Shown: positions 6,182-15,025 of the stretch, in pieces | Layout: the number at the start of each line of letters is the position of its first letter | How positions within the stretch are numbered: the first letter of the stretch is position 1 | From: an uncultured Alphaproteobacteria bacterium | GTDB lineage: Bacteria > Pseudomonadota > Alphaproteobacteria > CAAHEQ01 > UBA3637 | Assembly: GCA_944390205.1 (NCBI GenBank) | Contig: CALXPF010000003.1 | Coordinates: 1 to 41,293, forward strand | Direction: 5' to 3' | Length of the DNA: 41,293 nucleotides | Program-made: the position numbers and the translations under genes | The notes under the pieces: generated by a model | Database searches by the model: none | What the model saw: only the letters and a program-made list of their open reading frames with translations | What the model was told of the DNA's origin: nothing

Positions 6182-6212
6182 TTTAAAATTTAATTGACAA
6201 TTAAATTTTAAA
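6182..6212. repeat. 31-bp perfect palindrome upstream of the CRISPR array
   Basis: Two perfect 15-bp arms (6182-6196 and 6198-6212) flank a single A at 6197. The arms are almost pure A/T apart from one G:C pair at the inner end. It lies about 150 bp before the first repeat, in the 262-bp stretch between the proS promoter and the array. It has no adjacent T-run of the usual terminator form. The right half overlaps a TTGACA (6194-6199). It could be a protein-binding operator or a cruciform-forming site; the function is not known. Confidence 0.75.
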
Positions 6213-6361
6213 TAATTATTTTAAATTTTGTTTTAATATACAAAAAGAGAAGAGAGTCAGAAACACCAACGCTCAATTATTATGAACGATCTGTAATTAC
6301 CCATGAGACTCTAAAAGCAACATACTGTCATATCGAATACACAATACTCTAGCTTTGAATG

Positions 6362-6662
6362 GTTGCGACTTGACATCTAAATCCAATATGCTACAATATG
6401 ATTGGTGAAAGCAAAATTAAAGACATTGTTGCGACTTGACATCTAAATCCAATATGCTACAATGGCACGTGTTCGTTATTGTTAAAGCTAGGTGTTGCGA
6501 CTTGACATCTAAATCCAATATGCTACAATAGAAGAACTTGAACAACAATTTGCTTCGGCGGTTGCGACTTGACATCTAAATCCAATATGCTACAATTTAC
6601 TGTTGACTACAATCATTCGTGTATCTGTTGCGACTTGACATCTAAATCCAATATGCTACAAT
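6362..6662 (+). CRISPR. Type II-C CRISPR array, 5 repeats and 4 spacers
   Basis: Five identical 36-bp repeats lie at 6362-6397, 6428-6463, 6494-6529, 6561-6596 and 6627-6662. Spacers are 30, 30, 31 and 30 bp. The repeat starts GTTGCGACTTGACATC and ends CAATATGCTACAAT, the GTTG...CTACAAT pattern of Neisseria-like type II-C repeats. The anti-repeat of the tracrRNA at 11576-11605 is complementary to the + strand copy, so crRNA is read on +, towards cas2. Each repeat holds TTGACA, 16 bp, then TACAAT preceded by an extended -10 TG, so each spacer can have its own promoter. No repeat is degenerate, so the array ends cannot be polarised by repeat decay. Confidence 0.97.
6370..6397 (+). promoter_or_regulatory. 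Promoter embedded in each CRISPR repeat (first copy shown)
   Basis: TTGACA at 6370-6375, 16 bp, TACAAT at 6392-6397, with TGC directly before the -10. The same element recurs in the other repeats, starting at 6436, 6502, 6569 and 6635. A start about 7 nt past the -10 would leave about 24 nt of each 30-nt spacer in the RNA. That equals the guide length of processing-independent crRNAs described for Neisseria meningitidis. Motif and spacing are seen directly; activity is inferred. Confidence 0.7.
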
Positions 6663-6666
6663 CAAT

Positions 6667-6709
6667 CAGCCCATTTCCTAGGAAAATAAGGTAATTGGGC
6701 TGGTTTTTT
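6667..6709 (+). terminator. Terminator closing the CRISPR array
   Basis: CAGCCCA at 6667-6673 pairs with TGGGCTG at 6696-6702, with further partial pairing inside, followed by a run of six T at 6704-6709. It begins only 5 nt after the last repeat, and the T-run lies on the + side only. It therefore ends + strand array transcription before the convergent cas2 gene, and independently supports the + orientation of crRNA. Confidence 0.8.
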
Positions 6710-6785
6710 ATTTTGAAAAATCATTTTTTTGACCTTTTTTACACCACAAAAAATACATTTTTTTCAGAAAAATTATGCTTAAAAA

Positions 6786-7091
6786 TTAGAACAACTCAAA
6801 CTGATTTGGCTCTTTTTTAAGTAATTTTTCTTTCCGATTCGTAATGTGAATAATGTTGGAAAATTGCTTATCTGTGAAAAAAAGGATATTTACATCTCCA
6901 TAAGCCGGATTATTTTTTTTTATAGCTCGCACAAATTTTTGTGAACTTTCCCAAGTCCCAGTAAATTGAACATAAACAGATAATTGAACCATCTCAAATC
7001 CTTCATCCAATAAAAAATTTCTAAATCTCGAAGCTGATTTTCTTTCTTCTACTGTTTCTGTCGGCAAATCAAACATTACCATCATCCACAT
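6786..7091 (-). CDS. cas2: CRISPR-associated endonuclease Cas2
   Basis: 101 residues from ATG 7091. With Cas1 it forms the spacer-integration complex. VMFDLP near the N-terminus carries the conserved Asp, then the RFRNFLLDEGFEMVQLSVYV block typical of type II Cas2 and a C-terminal IHITNRKEKLL. The frame is open to a TTG at 7127 that overlaps the cas1 stop. I prefer ATG 7091 because GGGAGG stands 6 nt before it and type II Cas2 proteins start just before MFDLP. It is the last gene of the cas9-cas1-cas2 operon. Confidence 0.93.
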   Translation of the reverse strand: MWMMVMFDLPTETVEERKSASRFRNFLLDEGFEMVQLSVYVQFTGTWESSQKFVRAIKKNNPAYGDVNILFFTDKQFSNIIHITNRKEKLLKKEPNQFELF

Positions 7092-7123
7092 CAGCTTCCT
7101 CCCATTTATATACTCTTTCGTTA

Positions 7124-8032
7124 TCAAACCAGCTTTTCCTCAAATAAGTATTTATTAAAATTAAAATTTATTTCTTTTGTCTTATAGATTCTCACCAAAT
7201 CCCAAACCAATTGTTGCAAAATCATATACAATGGAGAATTCCCATTTCCATTGTAAAATTCTTTTATAATTAATCCTGATAATCGCTCCTTATGTTGCGG
7301 TAATATCTCAGATAAATCTACTTTTGTTTCATAAAGCTGATAAACATAAGCATCTACAAGAGGTCGAAACGGTTCAATTAAATCATCAACCAAACAAAAT
7401 GGATTCAATTTATTTCTATGACCTATACCATAACAAGGATTCAGGCCTGATGCCACGACATATCTGGCTATAGTTGCTCTCAAAATCGCATATCCATAGT
7501 TTAAAAAAGCATTGATTCCAGATGTACCTCTATCCCTTACGAATTTTTCTCCGAATAGTGCTTTAAAATATAATTTTGAAGCATATCCCTCTCTGTTTGT
7601 CTTATCCCCCGATAAAACAGTTTTATGCATATTAACTAATCGATTTTCTTTATTAAAGAGACTTAATACACGTGATTGATTTTTGATCTTTTCTTGTATA
7701 ATAATCTGCCATAATTTCTTTTCCAATGGCTTTTTATTTTCTATCTGCAAATATTGTATTTCTGTTTGTTTACTCTGACCAATATAGGAAAGAAGAAAAC
7801 CGCTTGGAAGATAATTCTTATCCAGAATCATAAGAGGGATATTCTCTTCACATAAACGTTGTAATAAATTATTTGTATAAATCACGCCATATCCACTCAC
7901 AAATATTGTATGAATAGAATGAAAGGGAATGTCCGATCTAACATCCCCCTCATCGGTTTCTATACGAAGAAAGCCCCTATATACACTTAATCTGCGATTA
8001 TTTCCTGAAATTTCAACAATTTTGTTTCCCAT
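7124..8032 (-). CDS. cas1: CRISPR-associated endonuclease Cas1, type II
   Basis: 302 residues; the integrase that inserts new spacers. The metal-binding catalytic residues are visible as Glu148 (REGYASKLYF), His205 (YGIGHRN) and Glu220 (DDLIEPFRP). These match the E, H and E positions of type II Cas1. The frame extends to 8059, but ATG 8032 fits better: the family starts with (M)xxKIVEISxxxRxLSVYRG, and GGGGAAAA lies about 10 nt upstream. It overlaps the cas9 3' end by 20 nt. No Cas4 or Csn2 gene is present, which fits subtype II-C. Confidence 0.96.
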   Translation of the reverse strand: MGNKIVEISGNNRRLSVYRGFLRIETDEGDVRSDIPFHSIHTIFVSGYGVIYTNNLLQRLCEENIPLMILDKNYLPSGFLLSYIGQSKQTEIQYLQIENKKPLEKKLWQIIIQEKIKNQSRVLSLFNKENRLVNMHKTVLSGDKTNREGYASKLYFKALFGEKFVRDRGTSGINAFLNYGYAILRATIARYVVASGLNPCYGIGHRNKLNPFCLVDDLIEPFRPLVDAYVYQLYETKVDLSEILPQHKERLSGLIIKEFYNGNGNSPLYMILQQLVWDLVRIYKTKEINFNFNKYLFEEKLV

Positions 8033-11000
8033 AGCAAATTTTCCCCATAGGTGAAACAAAAACCTTCCTCGCTTTATAGGTTTGCAAAGAGCTCCCAGAA
8101 GCTACCCATGACTTTGTATCATGATCTTCCTTTGCAATATTATGTGGCGTCAAAGATACAATTCCGTTCCCCATCTTTTTTACCCGAAACAAAACATCTA
8201 CTTCTTGTATTAGATTCTTTTGATCGAATTTTTCGCGAACATATTCGACAATCCCCTTGGGGAAGCTCTCCTGGAATGCCTGAGCTCTCGTAAATGTAGC
8301 CATAACCATGTCATTACGACGCAAACACATCACCCGTTTAGCATTTGGATATTTATATCGCCAATAAGAAATCTCCTCTCCCCGTGATTGACGAATGGTG
8401 GCATTATAGTTCGAAACAATCTCTATTTTCCACTTCCCCTGATCATTTGTCGGAACACCTGCAATTTTATTTTGAGGATTGATTTGATACACATCCGCAC
8501 AATAATTTCTTCCACTAATAAACCATTTAAAAGCTTTTTGAGCAGTTAAACGCAACTTCTGAATTGATTCTAATTCTTGTTCGGCCATCATTTGTTTTTG
8601 TTGCTTTTGTTCTTTCCCCTGCGCTTTCATACTCGAAGCTTTTTTGTTTAATATAAACCACTCCTTATAAGCATCATAATATGCTTGTTTATCCTGTTTA
8701 TCATAAAACATCGGAACATAATCAATGATCTTAATATTTTTTCTATCCTTTTTCTGCTTAAAAACAGCTGTTAATCCATTCGCATCCACAAAGCATTGCA
8801 ATCCATATGCAGTATCTTCATGCAACTGACCAATCGTAGATTCTTTTGCTGCAATATCCTTAAGATTTGGTTTATGTGAAATATTTATTTTCTTAACTTT
8901 TGTCAACAATTCAGTGATGTTAAGTGTAGACGGCATCTTAAAATATTCATTAACAAGAGCATTCGTACGATCCTTTTCAAAATCTTTAATTTCTTTTTTC
9001 AATTTCTTTTTTTCTTCTATAGAAATTTTTTCATCTTTCAGTAACGGAAATTTGTCTTTAAATTCATCTTTCACGCTTTTTTTTATAGCCCTCAACATTT
9101 CAGCGACATGTGCTAGCTGATTCCGTTCAACCATAGAAACGATGATCGCATCAATTGCATGATGATTGTGAAACGTTCTATATAACTCCTGTTCCTCTTT
9201 GTTTTTATATAAATTCAACCCCCAGGCCTTTCTGATAAGAGATGTTAACGCTCCAACAACAGATAAAACCGTTTGTTTGCCATCCTCTCTTACAATCGGT
9301 TGCAAATAAGAATAAAGCAATCGAGTCATATATCGCGTATCATTCAAAGAACGGGCTATCAGACTTGGCTTATTTTCAAAAATTTCTATCGCATTTTTAG
9401 AAAATCGCCATTGCTGTTCTATTGGTAATTTCTTTGACCTTTTAACAATTTCTTCCCAATTATACCCTCCGGGACTATTGCCAAAAGCCTCAAAAGGGGT
9501 ACAATTTCTCTTAAACCTATTAGCCTCTACATAAGCCAATACTTTATTATCCAAAGAATCATCCAAACTTCTCGAAAAAGGAATTAAATGTTCAATCTGT
9601 ATATTTTGACCATTTATCAAATCGGAAACCGAAATAGGCTTTCCAGTAAACGGACACTCTTTTCTAAGAGGCTCCTTCGAATAACTACCCAATCTTTTCC
9701 AAATCTTATATTTTGTGATATCATATTTTGTATAATTTCTATCTCCGCATTTTAATTTTAGCTCTTCCTTAATTTTTTGATTCTCTTTCTCATTAGCTTC
9801 CCGAATCTTTGTCATATTTTGACGTTCTTTTGCGGAGGCAGGCAAATCTCTTGCATACTCTATCGCAATATCAAAGGGGCGCCCATATTTTTGAATTATT
9901 TCATTAACAAGATGCCGAATTTGATTCAAAGCAACATGAACGGTTGCATTATTGATTTTACCATATTGTTCCTCTGGTGTTCTTGGATTTTTCTTTTTCC
10001 CTAAACAATTTTGAGATAATATCTCTCCATAATATGGCAAAAAATCTAAATGTTCTCTACTCAGAGTAGGATAAAGTTCCTGACAGGCATCCGAATACAT
10101 AATACCATTTTTCATCAATCCCAAAATCTTACGAATCGCTTTTTCTGAAAGTGAACCAAAATCCGGTTCGAAATCAATCTCAAACAAAACCTCTTGCGCA
10201 GCTTCAACAGAAAGATGAAATTCATTCATAAGATATTCTAAAATTAAATTATTTTCATCCTCAATAGAAATTCTTGTCTTCGGATATTCAATGTATGTAT
10301 GGGGCCTTGCAAGAACATTTATAAGCTTACCACGTTGGGTTTCATCCATATCTTTCCAATATGAAAAAAAATAATGAGATTTATTAATAGCAAATTGTGT
10401 AGTATTAACCAACAGCCCCTTCTCTGATGCCAACTCTTTATTATTTTGATCCTCAAATTTATTATTTTTTCCCTCAAGATTAAATGATCCAAACTTATCC
10501 AGACCCAATTCTTTTTTTATACGCTTATATGTGATAATTCCGGTTTTATCCGTTTTTACTGAAACAGGATTTTGTAAAAGCTCAACCAAACGAAAACTAG
10601 CCTGCTTATCAAAAGCTTTTTCATCTGAAAACTTCAAATTAGTGATATTTTGCCAAATTCTGAATTCTTGAAATAAAGGATGAGCACGAGGAATTCTCTT
10701 TTCTCCTTTTTCAAACAAACATTCCCCTTCATCTGCTTCCTTCAACGGGCGTTGAAAAAAGATAACATTTTTAATTTTATGATAATTTTCATCCGAAAGA
10801 ATATTAAAATAAGACTTATCCTTCCAATATTCTTTTTGTTTTTCCCAAATGGTATCAAACTCATTTATATAAAGCTCCCTAAATGGGAAAAGCCCCCCTT
10901 GATACTTTCCATTTTCATCAAAAAGATCACTCAACCGAATCTTTTGATTATTTTCCAATTGTTTGGCGAGAAACTCTCCATAAGTCCGAGCTTTATTTTC

Positions 11001-11453
11001 TTCCATCGCCGACAATAAAGTTTCATAACCACCTTTTAACTTTCCTCCTTCTTTTTTGTCCTCTTTTCGATTAGAAAGAAAACCTTTCCGTTTTGATAAG
11101 TGCATAAATACCCGACCCAATTCAAAAGGAGACAGTGCTCTATCTAAAGCTGCCTTACGCAAAATATATGGATTTTTATTTTTTAATGCCTCCTTTTCCT
11201 CTTTTTCTGTTGGCATCAAATTAAGTCTCGTTAAAATACTTAACAACTCTGATATTTTTATATGTCTCCGATGAGTTAATCTACGAGATCCACGAGCCTT
11301 CCGCCGCTTAACACAGAGAGAGGCCTTGCTTTTATCTTCACGTCCATCGTCAAAAATTCTAACACCAAAATCAATTAATTTTTGATTATCCAGATCAAAA
11401 AGAGACCATCCAATAGACGTAGCACCCATATCAAGACCTATTCTATATTTCAT
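8013..11453 (-). CDS. cas9: CRISPR-associated endonuclease Cas9, type II-C
   Basis: 1146 residues, slightly larger than Neisseria Cas9 (1082). It cleaves DNA under crRNA:tracrRNA guidance. All catalytic parts are present: RuvC-I Asp8 in IGLDMGATSIGW; the arginine-rich bridge helix at about 45-66; an alpha-helical REC lobe at about 67-510; RuvC-II Glu532 in DIAIEYARD; HNH His622 in IQIEHLIPFSRSLDDS with Asn645; and RuvC-III His765/Asp768 in HHAIDAI. Glu621 replaces the more common Asp before the HNH His, as in some Bacteroidetes Cas9s. A lysine/glutamate-rich stretch at about 791-830 follows RuvC-III, and the WED/PAM-interacting region fills the last 280 residues. GGGAGGAAG lies just before the ATG. 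All catalytic residues are intact, so it should be an active nuclease. Confidence 0.98.
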   Translation of the reverse strand: MKYRIGLDMGATSIGWSLFDLDNQKLIDFGVRIFDDGREDKSKASLCVKRRKARGSRRLTHRRHIKISELLSILTRLNLMPTEKEEKEALKNKNPYILRKAALDRALSPFELGRVFMHLSKRKGFLSNRKEDKKEGGKLKGGYETLLSAMEENKARTYGEFLAKQLENNQKIRLSDLFDENGKYQGGLFPFRELYINEFDTIWEKQKEYWKDKSYFNILSDENYHKIKNVIFFQRPLKEADEGECLFEKGEKRIPRAHPLFQEFRIWQNITNLKFSDEKAFDKQASFRLVELLQNPVSVKTDKTGIITYKRIKKELGLDKFGSFNLEGKNNKFEDQNNKELASEKGLLVNTTQFAINKSHYFFSYWKDMDETQRGKLINVLARPHTYIEYPKTRISIEDENNLILEYLMNEFHLSVEAAQEVLFEIDFEPDFGSLSEKAIRKILGLMKNGIMYSDACQELYPTLSREHLDFLPYYGEILSQNCLGKKKNPRTPEEQYGKINNATVHVALNQIRHLVNEIIQKYGRPFDIAIEYARDLPASAKERQNMTKIREANEKENQKIKEELKLKCGDRNYTKYDITKYKIWKRLGSYSKEPLRKECPFTGKPISVSDLINGQNIQIEHLIPFSRSLDDSLDNKVLAYVEANRFKRNCTPFEAFGNSPGGYNWEEIVKRSKKLPIEQQWRFSKNAIEIFENKPSLIARSLNDTRYMTRLLYSYLQPIVREDGKQTVLSVVGALTSLIRKAWGLNLYKNKEEQELYRTFHNHHAIDAIIVSMVERNQLAHVAEMLRAIKKSVKDEFKDKFPLLKDEKISIEEKKKLKKEIKDFEKDRTNALVNEYFKMPSTLNITELLTKVKKINISHKPNLKDIAAKESTIGQLHEDTAYGLQCFVDANGLTAVFKQKKDRKNIKIIDYVPMFYDKQDKQAYYDAYKEWFILNKKASSMKAQGKEQKQQKQMMAEQELESIQKLRLTAQKAFKWFISGRNYCADVYQINPQNKIAGVPTNDQGKWKIEIVSNYNATIRQSRGEEISYWRYKYPNAKRVMCLRRNDMVMATFTRAQAFQESFPKGIVEYVREKFDQKNLIQEVDVLFRVKKMGNGIVSLTPHNIAKEDHDTKSWVASGSSLQTYKARKVFVSPMGKICYGKQNC

Positions 11454-11472
11454 TACTTCCTCCCATGCGTTA

Positions 11473-11518
11473 TTAGATAAAAATACTATTTTGATAAATA
11501 TATTATATTTTTATCTAA
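11473..11518. repeat. Inverted repeat between cas9 and the tracrRNA gene
   Basis: Perfect 13-bp arms, TTAGATAAAAATA at 11473-11485 and its complement at 11506-11518, with 20 bp between them. It straddles the probable cas9 -10 region and ends 9 bp before the tracrRNA -35 box. It has the form of an operator that could control cas9, tracrRNA or both. The arms are AT-only apart from one G:C pair, so some chance contribution is possible in this AT-rich DNA. Confidence 0.65.
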
Positions 11519-11525
11519 AAAACAA
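11497..11525 (-). promoter_or_regulatory. Candidate cas9 promoter
   Basis: On the minus strand TTGTTT (11520-11525), 17 bp, TATATT (11497-11502), giving a start near 11490 and a leader of about 37 nt. The -35 match is weak, so this is tentative. It is separated by one base from the -35 box of the divergent tracrRNA promoter. Confidence 0.4.
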
Positions 11526-11526
11526 G

Positions 11527-11555
11527 TTGACATTTTAATAATAATATCCTATATA
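11527..11555 (+). promoter_or_regulatory. tracrRNA promoter
   Basis: Perfect TTGACA at 11527-11532, 17 bp, TATATA at 11550-11555. The predicted start is about 11562, some 14 nt before the anti-repeat. Confidence 0.7.
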
Positions 11556-11561
11556 TGTAGT

Positions 11562-11662
11562 ATCGAATAAGTTTCGTAGCATATTGGTTTTAGATGTCAG
11601 GTCGCTAATAAGAAATTTATTTCGATATTAAACCCGACTACTTTGGTAGGCGGGTTTTCTTT
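11562..11662 (+). ncRNA. tracrRNA for the type II-C Cas9
   Basis: The anti-repeat core at 11576-11605 is complementary to the CRISPR repeat at 28 of 30 positions. Of the two differences, one gives a G-U wobble and the other a U-U mismatch. It is followed by a stem-loop at 11606-11630 (TAATA/TATTA outer, GAAA/TTTC inner). A terminator hairpin follows at 11632-11653: CCCG/CGGG and CTAC/GTAG around a TTTG loop, then a T-rich tail. Start and end are predicted from the promoter at 11527 and this terminator. It is divergent from cas9 and carries the parts needed for crRNA pairing and Cas9 binding. The exact 5' end is inferred. Confidence 0.88.
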
Positions 11663-11708
11663 TTAATCTCTCAAACGGTTCCAAAAAAAATCTCATTTTA
11701 CAAAATGT

Positions 11709-11737
11709 TTGTCAAAAACAGAAAAATATGATATAAT
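11709..11737 (+). promoter_or_regulatory. Promoter of the orphan membrane-protein gene
   Basis: TTGTCA at 11709-11714, 17 bp, perfect TATAAT at 11732-11737. The start is predicted near 11744, about 30 nt before ATG 11775. Confidence 0.7.
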
Positions 11738-11774
11738 CCCATTTACAATCGTTTATGATAAAAGGAAAAGAAAA

Positions 11775-12245
11775 ATGACCGGCAAACCTGTTGACCATAA
11801 AATTCGAAGAGAAAGCTCTCAAAAATTAGCTCCTTATTTTGGAGAATATATGAAAAAAACATTCGACACTCTTCCCAAAAGTGCTCAAGAGGCCGACATG
11901 CGTCAAGCTTATATGTGTGGAGAATACCAACCTCAACACACGCAACGGGCGGATACCGTTCCACTGCTTCCCCCAAAAAAATTTATTCACACAAAAAAAG
12001 AAGAACCGGCTCAACCGAAAACAGCGCCCCATGACAATTCAATCCCCCAAACAAGGGGTTCTCATGACACCTCAACAACGTTAAAGCAAATTTTGGTCGG
12101 ACTTTGTCTCATGGGAAGCGCTTTGATTCTTGGATGGTGTTCCTCCAACAACAGGCAGAGCTCTCAACAGTCCGTAAGAGCTCAAAAAATATCATCGCAT
12201 AACGATGTTAAGCCAACCCAACTCCATCAGCGGTCCCTCCCGTAG
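11775..12245 (+). CDS. Small membrane protein of unknown function
   Basis: 156 residues, family not recognised. Residues 1-60 are charged and probably helical; 61-100 are rich in Pro, Lys and Thr and look disordered. One hydrophobic segment at about 103-122 (LKQILVGLCLMGSALILGWC) is followed by a polar Ser/Gln-rich tail of about 34 residues. The layout suggests a single-pass protein with a cytoplasmic head. The open frame extends upstream to 11709, but that part lies in the promoter; ATG 11775 has AAAGGAAAAG before it. The gene stands alone between the tracrRNA and leuS. The 275 bp after it show no clear terminator. Confidence 0.65.
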   Translation: MTGKPVDHKIRRESSQKLAPYFGEYMKKTFDTLPKSAQEADMRQAYMCGEYQPQHTQRADTVPLLPPKKFIHTKKEEPAQPKTAPHDNSIPQTRGSHDTSTTLKQILVGLCLMGSALILGWCSSNNRQSSQQSVRAQKISSHNDVKPTQLHQRSLP

Positions 12246-12457
12246 AATAAAAAATATTCCTGCCCGATCCAATAAAGATTTTGAAGGCTTTTAAAGGAAT
12301 TGTCCGCCGGTCACAAGGACGGCCCACCAACCGCTCTAAAAACGGGGATGTCATATTTTGAAAGCTCCTTGTTCTTACTTTAAAGCTCTTTTTAAAATAT
12401 TGCCGAAAACGTATTTTATGTTAAAGCGATTATTCCGTCTCAAAAATCAAATAATAT

Positions 12458-12486
12458 TTGACTTTTAGAGAGATGTTTTATATCCT
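12458..12486 (+). promoter_or_regulatory. Candidate leuS promoter
   Basis: TTGACT at 12458-12463, 17 bp, TATCCT at 12481-12486. The -10 is weak. I found no T-box or other leader element in 12246-12520. Confidence 0.4.
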
Positions 12487-12520
12487 CTTTTCAATTATTT
12501 TTTTGTGATAGGAGAAATCA

Positions 12521-15025
12521 ATGGCAGAATATAATCATATTGAAATTGAAAACAAATGGAAAAAGTACTGGGATCAAAACAAAACCTTTAAAACAGAAAT
12601 AGATAAAAACAAGCCCAAATACTATGTCTTGGATATGTTCCCCTATCCGTCAGGCGCCGGCCTTCATGTCGGTCATGCCGAAAATTATACGATTTCGGAT
12701 ATTATGGCTCGCTATAAAAGAATGAACGGTTTTAATGTTCTTCACCCAATGGGGTGGGACGCTTTCGGTCTTCCGGCCGAACGATATGCCGAAAAAACAG
12801 GAATGCACCCTGCCGATGTCGTGAAACAAAATGTTAATACATTTCGAGATCAACTGAAATCTATCGGTCTGTCTTATGATTGGGATCGAGAAATCAATAC
12901 AACCGATCCGTCCTATTACAAGTGGACTCAATATATTTTTAAAATCTTGTTCGACAGAGGCTTGGCATACGAGGTGATTACCCCCGTTAATTGGTGTCCC
13001 AAATTGGGAACCGTTCTGGCCAATGAAGAAGTGAAAGACGGGAAATACGTTGAAACCGGTGATGAAGTTATTCGAAAGCCTCTTCGTCAATGGATGTTAA
13101 AAATTACGGCTTACGCCGAACGGCTCTTACAGGGATTGGATAAACTGGATTGGCCCGAAAGTATTAAAACAATGCAACGGGAATGGATCGGAAAATCAAC
13201 AGGTGCCGATATTGTCTTTAAAGTTGCCGGACAAAACGCCGAATTTACGGTTTATACAACACGTCCCGACACTTTGTTCGGAGCCACCTATTGTGTATTG
13301 GCACCCGAACATGCTCTGGTTAAGGAAATAACAACACCGGAGCATAAGGCCAAAGTCGATGCTTATGTCGAAGCAGCGTCCAAAAAGTCCGCTCAAGATC
13401 GCTTAGCTGATGTTAAAGATAAAACAGGAGCCTTTACGGGAGCTTACGCCATCAATCCATTGAATGGGAAAGAAATTCCGATTTATATTGCCGACTATGT
13501 TTTGGGAGATTACGGGTACGGTGCCATTATGGCTGTTCCGGCTCATGATCAACGGGACTATGACTTTGCCAAAAAGTTTGGTATTCCCATGATACAAGTC
13601 ATTGAAGGCGGTGATATTTCCAAAGAAGCCTTTGAAGGAGACGGGGCGTTGATTAACTCCGACTTTTTAAACGGCCTCCATGTCGCCGAATCAAAAAAGA
13701 AGATGATTGAATATGCGGAAAAGAACGGCTTTGGAAAAGGAACTGTCAATTATAAATTAAGAGACTGGCTCTTTGCCAGACAACGCTATTGGGGAGAACC
13801 GTTCCCGATTATTCATTGTGAAGATGGAACAATCAAGTCTTTGCCCTTAAAAGATTTGCCCGTTTTATTGCCTCCTATGGCAGAATTCAGACCAACGGCC
13901 GATGGGGAACCGCCCTTGGCTCGATGCACGGAATGGCTCAAAACAACCGATCCCGAAACAGGAAAACCGGCTCTTCGAGAAACAAACACCATGCCCCAAT
14001 GGGCCGGAAGTTCTTGGTACTTCCTCCGTTTTTGTGATCCGCATAATGATTCTGCTTTTGTCAGCAAAGAAGCTGATGAATATTGGATGCCGGTGGATTT
14101 GTATGTCGGTGGTGTCGAACATGCCGTTTTACATCTTCTCTATGCTCGTTTTTGGCAAAAAGTTCTGTTTGATGCCGGTCTCGTTTCAACGGATGAACCG
14201 TTTAAAAGATTGGTCAATCAAGGCATGGTGTTAGCCTATTCTTATCAGGATGATAACGGAAAGTATTATTATCCAAAACAGGTTGAACGCCGTGGAAATG
14301 ATTGGTATGTCAAAGAAACAGACATTAAAGTGAACACGCAGGTCGAAAAAATGAGTAAATCTCGTTATAACGTTGTCAATCCGGATGATGTGGAAACTGA
14401 GTTCGGTGCCGACTCCATGCGTCTTTATTTGATGTTTATGGGTCCGATCGATGCCGAAAAACCGTGGACATCCGATGGAATTAACGGGGTCAATCGGTTT
14501 GTAAAACGTGTCTGGAACATCTTTGAAACACCCGAAAAAATTCAAGAGACCGGAGATCCCGAATTGACAAAAATCATGCATAAAACAATTAAAGGGGTCA
14601 CGGAAGATATGGAAAGAATGACATTTAACACAGCCATCTCCAAAATGATGGAAATGGTCAATGCCATTTATAAGTCAGAAAAGCCGATTGCCAAAAAAGA
14701 TATGGAGAGTTTTGTAAAATTACTCTCTCCTCTTGCCCCGTTTGTTGCGGAAGAGCTCTGGGAAAAGTTGGGACATACGGAAACAATCACGTATGCGCCG
14801 TGGCCAACCTATGATGAATCGCTTTTGGTCAAAAACGATATGGAAATTGTTGTCCAGATCTTAGGAAAGAAAAGAGCCTCTCTGATTGTTCCGGTTGACA
14901 GCACTCAAGATGAAATCCTAAAATCAGCTCAACAAGAACCACGCATTCAAGAGCTTTTGAAGGGGAAAGAAATCATCAAGGTGATCTATGTCCCTGGTCG
15001 GTTGATGAATATCGTCATTAAATAA
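12521..15025 (+). CDS. leuS: Leucyl-tRNA synthetase
   Basis: 834 residues, a class I synthetase that charges tRNA-Leu. The HIGH signature is HVGH at residues 49-52 in [12 protein letters not shown], and KMSKS is at 610-614. The CP1 editing domain is recognisable by [19 protein letters not shown], and the C-terminal anticodon-binding and LeuRS-specific regions are present. The SGAGLHVGH...[14 protein letters not shown] style is that of Firmicutes and Bacteroidetes enzymes, not the SGRIHMGHVRNYT style of typical alphaproteobacteria. AGGAG precedes the ATG. A strong terminator follows, so it is a single-gene unit. Confidence 0.97.

Follow-up and report, generated by a model that had tools for sequence, protein, structure and literature searches.

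A type II-C locus in an uncultured alphaproteobacterium

The window, meaning the whole stretch of 41,293 nucleotides that was analysed, belongs to a 1.3-Mb draft genome and contains a CRISPR array beside a short cas operon. The array consists of five identical 36-nt repeats, GTTGCGACTTGACATCTAAATCCAATATGCTACAAT, which lie on the + strand, span positions 6362-6662 and are separated by spacers of 30, 30, 31 and 30 nt. This repeat occurs in the genome only at the window array. The other components of the locus are as follows.

6786-7127, - strand: cas2
7124-8059, - strand: cas1 of the type II / NMENI family (TIGR03639, 243 bits against a cut-off of 120)
8013-11453, - strand: cas9, encoding 1146 aa with HNH and RuvC domains (TIGR01865, 538 bits)
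11527-11664, + strand: predicted tracrRNA gene with promoter, anti-repeat and a terminator hairpin followed by a T-run

The cas genes run on the - strand towards the array, so that array and operon are convergent, and the tracrRNA gene is divergent from cas9. The promoter of the tracrRNA gene has TTGACA at 11527-11532, a gap of 17 bp and TATATA; its anti-repeat (11574-11609) pairs along the window repeat, and its terminator (11630-11664) has a hairpin at 11630-11656 followed by a T-run. A search against Rfam gave no match at gathering thresholds. Among the ORFs searched around the array there is no match to csn2 or cas4, and the flanking ORFs comprise proS, leuS and a third that has no family. 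The closest relatives of the window Cas9 with solved structures are Cas9s of about 1,080-1,150 aa, and its nearest relatives overall come from uncultured Alphaproteobacteria, mostly gut MAGs. Because cas9, cas1 and cas2 are the only cas genes, with neither csn2 nor cas4, and because Cas1 is of the NMENI family, Cas9 has II-C kin and the tracrRNA gene lies beside cas9, this is a common type II-C CRISPR-Cas system of standard layout.

In the genome G001, which is of the same genus as the window, leuS adjoins a Cas9 of another lineage (32% identity to the window Cas9) with a different repeat; in the window, the region 11453-15025 places its own II-C system beside leuS in the same chromosomal slot. 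One II-C system appears to have been replaced by another at this position. The four window spacers have no exact match to IMG/VR contigs, and therefore no targets or PAM were derived. Among viral contigs, no close relative of Cas9 was found with the window protein as query, and three distant ones were found with an alignment. One contig classed as viral (IMGVR_UViG_3300022664_000409) encodes a related Cas9 and has an array in which the repeat, GTTTCAGCTTGACACCAAAACCTTATAGAGTGATAT, contains TTGACA.

A complete promoter sequence within each repeat

The first-pass annotation had described five repeats, each with TTGACA, a 16-bp gap, TACAAT and an extended -10 TG, and both the coordinates and this anatomy were confirmed. 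In each repeat, TTGACA occupies nt 9-14 and TACAAT nt 31-36, with 16 bp between them and TG at nt 28-29.

6362-6397, + strand: CRISPR repeat 1, the upstream end of the array; -35 TTGACA 6370-6375, TG 6389-6390, -10 TACAAT 6392-6397
6428-6463, + strand: CRISPR repeat 2; -35 6436-6441, -10 6458-6463
6494-6529, + strand: CRISPR repeat 3; -35 6502-6507, -10 6524-6529
6561-6596, + strand: CRISPR repeat 4; -35 6569-6574, -10 6591-6596
6627-6662, + strand: CRISPR repeat 5, terminal, on the cas2 side; -35 6635-6640, -10 6657-6662, its putative promoter facing a hairpin that begins at 6664

The repeat tail TGCTACAAT, which holds the extended -10, is present in all five repeats. Its -10 box is TACAAT and not TATAAT, which counts against the promoter reading, though the Neisseria-type repeat shares this box. 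The window repeat has the form of a sigma-70 promoter (TTGACA, 16-18 bp, a TATAAT-like hexamer and an optional TGn). As had been proposed, the whole promoter is encoded by the repeat: both boxes lie inside the 36-mer, which matches 11/12 consensus positions and has the extended -10 in addition. The repeats are the sole sites of TTGACA-N15-19-TAYAAT in the 41-kb window, where shuffles average 0.10. Elsewhere in the host genome there are nine sites of TTGACA-N16-18-TAYAAT, and a reversed-pattern control gives none; from this enrichment it follows that the TTGACA/TAYAAT consensus is in use by the host.

Is the array instead transcribed as one long pre-crRNA from an upstream promoter, the promoter in the repeats being vestigial or silent? 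One candidate for such a promoter lies in the AT-rich region upstream of the array.

6194-6222, + strand: weak candidate promoter, TTGACA-17-TATTTT, 10/12

This site is no better than chance, as 16% of shuffles of the region match or exceed it, and the upstream regions of 22 related arrays have promoter scores that are on average no better than those of shuffles. With no excess over shuffles, an upstream leader promoter was rejected as the driver of the array. In the II-C systems that have been studied, moreover, it is the repeats that drive transcription, and a long upstream transcript is very unlikely to be the source of the crRNAs. The same upstream stretch contains near-perfect AT-rich palindromes with arms of 15-16 bp at 6182-6228, overlapping the candidate promoter.

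The -35 box among related repeats

Are the -35 and -10 bases kept in related repeats, as the first-pass annotation had asked? Arrays for the comparison came from 28 related genomes, from 80 loci identified by scanning a genome collection and from an additional sample of Pseudomonadota. In 32 of 65 distinct related repeats, TTGACA is matched at five or more of six positions with a gap of 16 or 17 bp to the -10 box, against a mean of 0.95 and a maximum of 7 in shuffles; since these repeats share descent, the comparison is not to be read as a probability. Matches of this quality are confined to repeat nt 8 and 9. On Cas9 trees the trait requires 5-6 changes, compared with 21-27 for shuffled labels, and because independent gains and losses are so few, the shuffle statistics overstate independence.

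AT-rich repeats easily resemble promoters, and promoter matches in the related repeats do correlate with low G+C. As an account of the window repeat, however, coincidence is extremely improbable, for a shuffled 36-mer reaches at least 11/12 in only 19 of 100,000 trials and about half of the related repeats have the box in a single location.

The complete repeat promoter is not peculiar to the window. The -35 box is found in 22 of the 25 systems of the clade that holds the window and in 8/9 of a clade with Treponema, where some repeats match 12/12; Mucispirillum also has it. Judged by the titles of their records, the hosts belong to at least five phyla (Pseudomonadota, Spirochaetota, Deferribacterota, Verrucomicrobiota and Cloacimonadota), although many are MAGs, so that individual assignments may be in error. 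Within the window's own family, a distant lineage whose Cas9 is about 32% identical has TTGACC one base earlier in the arrangement TTGACC-17-TATACT. At the -35 site, sister systems that are rich in G+C carry TGGACC, TTGGCC or still poorer matches. In the window clade, TTGAC and TA.A.T change slowly, and the -35 box is kept over much of the Cas9 tree, which answers the question above in the affirmative.

One genome of the comparison (G019) has a single cas9 with an array on either side; the repeats of the two arrays, GTTGCGACTTGACAATAATTTCCTATATGCTATAAT and GTTTTAGTCCCCTTCTAAATTCGGGGCTGCTTTAAT, are unrelated. The array with GTTGCGACTTGACAATAATTTCCTATATGCTATAAT has a perfect 12/12 promoter.

Promoter constraint or pairing with tracrRNA

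The bases of the repeat also pair with tracrRNA, and conservation alone proves little. This leaves room for another explanation, in which the extended -10 alone is sufficient, as in Neisseria and Campylobacter, and TTGACA is kept for tracrRNA pairing, for contact between Cas9 and the repeat:anti-repeat duplex or for recognition by the integrase. In favour of this explanation, the repeats of the Neisseria type and of C. jejuni function without any -35 box, and repeat nt 11-13 are paired with tracrRNA in nearly all systems. Positions 9-13 are, furthermore, somewhat conserved in a sister clade that lacks the -35 box, and part of the constraint on these positions may therefore come from Cas9 or RNA structure.

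The pattern of change within the window clade nevertheless follows the promoter base by base. In the clade of 25, the TTGAC positions have a mean of 1.6 changes, against 4.9 for the interior positions 15-27 (p = 0.004). The sixth base, the weakest of a -35 box, has 10 changes, as expected, and the -10 bases T1, A2 and T6 have 0, 1 and 0. The first T of the -35 box has no changes in the repeats, against four at the anti-repeat position of tracrRNA that faces it, and the T is invariant even where it is unpaired or wobble-paired; in many relatives, the repeat TTT stands opposite UUU of tracrRNA in a bulge. The constancy of the first T is thus not due to tracrRNA pairing. Where the box is shifted, in the distant lineage, the spacing is still 16-17 bp. 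Sister clades carry TGGAC, TAGAG or TTGGC at the same site, and TTGAC is therefore not demanded by Cas9. Taken against this evidence, it is rather unlikely that the extended -10 acts alone and that TTGACA serves another purpose.

The tracrRNA genes contain antisense copies of the promoter, and these have decayed, from 5.3 to 4.2 matches at the -35 box and from 5.4 to 2.9 at the -10 box. Such decay would follow from a harmful effect of antisense firing, but drift alone would also produce it. The qualities of the -35 and -10 boxes are correlated across loci (raw Spearman 0.57), but this correlation loses significance once phylogeny is corrected for (p = 0.21) and also when the analysis is restricted to AT-rich loci. 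Both qualities follow base composition, and the number of pairs was too small for independent-pair tests. Co-evolution of the two boxes is accordingly not supported.

The hairpin after the last repeat and the polarity of the array

Directly after repeat 5, the sequence can fold into a strong hairpin.

6664-6712, + strand: hairpin and T-run, predicted intrinsic terminator or leader-end palindrome (-18.0 kcal/mol)

A strong hairpin (z < -2) lies directly 3' of the last repeat in 54 of 67 related arrays, and there is no hairpin signal before the first repeat in these arrays. The hairpin centre is about 22.5-24 nt from the repeat end, independent of stem length; 51/64 centres fall at 20-25.5 nt, compared with 22% in shuffles. 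The hairpin is followed by a T-run in 28/33 arrays with a -35 box and in 9/31 without one, a difference for which base composition is a confounder. The fixed distance of the centre suggests that the hairpin is a leader element for spacer integration, possibly by Cas1-Cas2, either in addition to a terminator or in place of one. Riemerella offers a published case of a leader palindrome (PMC5006608).

Which end of the array is the older? New spacers of II-C systems enter at the cas2-side end (PMC6008519, PMC12080349). In the related arrays the last repeat is mutated in 3/67 and the first repeat in 23/67; the five window repeats are all identical. By II-C precedent, repeat 1 would be the oldest of the window array and repeat 5 its acquisition end.

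Comparison with known II-C systems

In the II-C system of Neisseria meningitidis, crRNAs start inside the spacers and are driven by promoters in the repeats. Its repeat, GTTGTAGCTCCCTTTCTCATTTCGCAGTGCTACAAT, resembles that of the window in being a 36-mer with the same tail of nine bases, TGCTACAAT, and in being accompanied by cas9-cas1-cas2, but it has no -35 box: nt 9-14 are TCCCTT (2/6 matches). This Neisseria-type repeat was recovered in the comparison as L204, and thus bears out the earlier statement that Neisseria has the extended -10 and that the window adds the -35.

In Campylobacter jejuni, an extended -10 (GGTAAAAT) forms the end of each repeat, transcription starts have been mapped at spacer position 5, and the 3' side of the crRNA is trimmed by RNase III and tracrRNA; only the -10 box has been described in this repeat (PMC3656092). 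The II-C system of Clostridium cellulolyticum is like that of the window in that the last nine bases of its repeat resemble an extended -10 and its array is convergent with the cas genes, but no -35 box has been reported; the spacer part of its crRNAs is 23-26 nt long (PMC7038990). The guide length of about 24 nt that had been proposed for the window fits these published crRNAs, both the start at spacer position 5 in C. jejuni (PMC3656092) and the lengths in C. cellulolyticum (PMC7038990). In Flavobacterium columnare and F. psychrophilum, TTG at 33-35 bp upstream of each spacer has been proposed as a repeat-encoded promoter element (PMC8092290, PMC10309648). Unlike the window repeat, this conjectured promoter is of the Bacteroidetes type, with TTG only, without the usual -10 and without a TTGACA/TACAAT pair.

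Repeat-embedded extended -10 promoters are therefore already known in II-C systems, from Campylobacter and Neisseria. In the literature searched, no report of TTGACA or of a -35/-10 pair within II-C repeats was found, the nearest case being the TTG of Flavobacterium, and an earlier mention is possible. The -35 box that completes the repeat promoter, conserved in much of the Cas9 tree, is apparently undescribed.

A model for transcription of the array

The repeat-encoded promoter is a real feature of the window and is probably functional. It is likely that every repeat of the window II-C array is a self-contained promoter of the sigma-70 type (TTGACA, 16 bp, TGC-TACAAT) that initiates in the next spacer. 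RNA polymerase would bind a single repeat through both boxes and start about 6-7 nt into the following spacer, so that the guide would be about 24 nt long and would not require processing at its 5' end. The tracrRNA would pair with the downstream repeat, and host RNase III would then trim the 3' side. The precedents of C. jejuni and N. meningitidis are the basis on which start sites, promoter activity, termination and processing by RNase III are inferred.

Under this model, a promoter upstream of the array would not be needed, and a new spacer inserted beside a promoter-bearing repeat would be expressed immediately in whatever host recognises the consensus. Behind the last repeat there is no spacer; the transcript from this repeat may be stopped by the hairpin and T-run at 6664-6712, before the convergent cas genes, and the same hairpin would also end read-through towards cas2.

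Implications for II-C arrays

For the family as a whole, the balance of the comparison leans towards a broader conclusion. A large part of the II-C tree, in at least five phyla, appears to keep a complete -35/-10 promoter in each repeat under selection separate from tracrRNA pairing. Spacers would then be autonomous, leader-free units that are active right after integration or transfer, and a terminator-like palindrome at a fixed distance would stop the orphan transcript.

In the II-C systems studied so far, the repeat supplies only the extended -10 and the upstream spacer fills the -35 position, so that spacers could differ in promoter strength. A repeat that holds both boxes would give every spacer the same core promoter strength, whatever the order of the spacers. 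If both boxes work, crRNA levels are predicted to be even across the array and new spacers to be used immediately. A full promoter carried by the repeat could also explain function without a leader promoter after horizontal transfer. Such repeats could be used as compact self-expressing guide arrays. The repeat would have four simultaneous roles, as promoter, integration target, tracrRNA partner and Cas9 scaffold, and would therefore be a compact model for overlapping sequence constraints.
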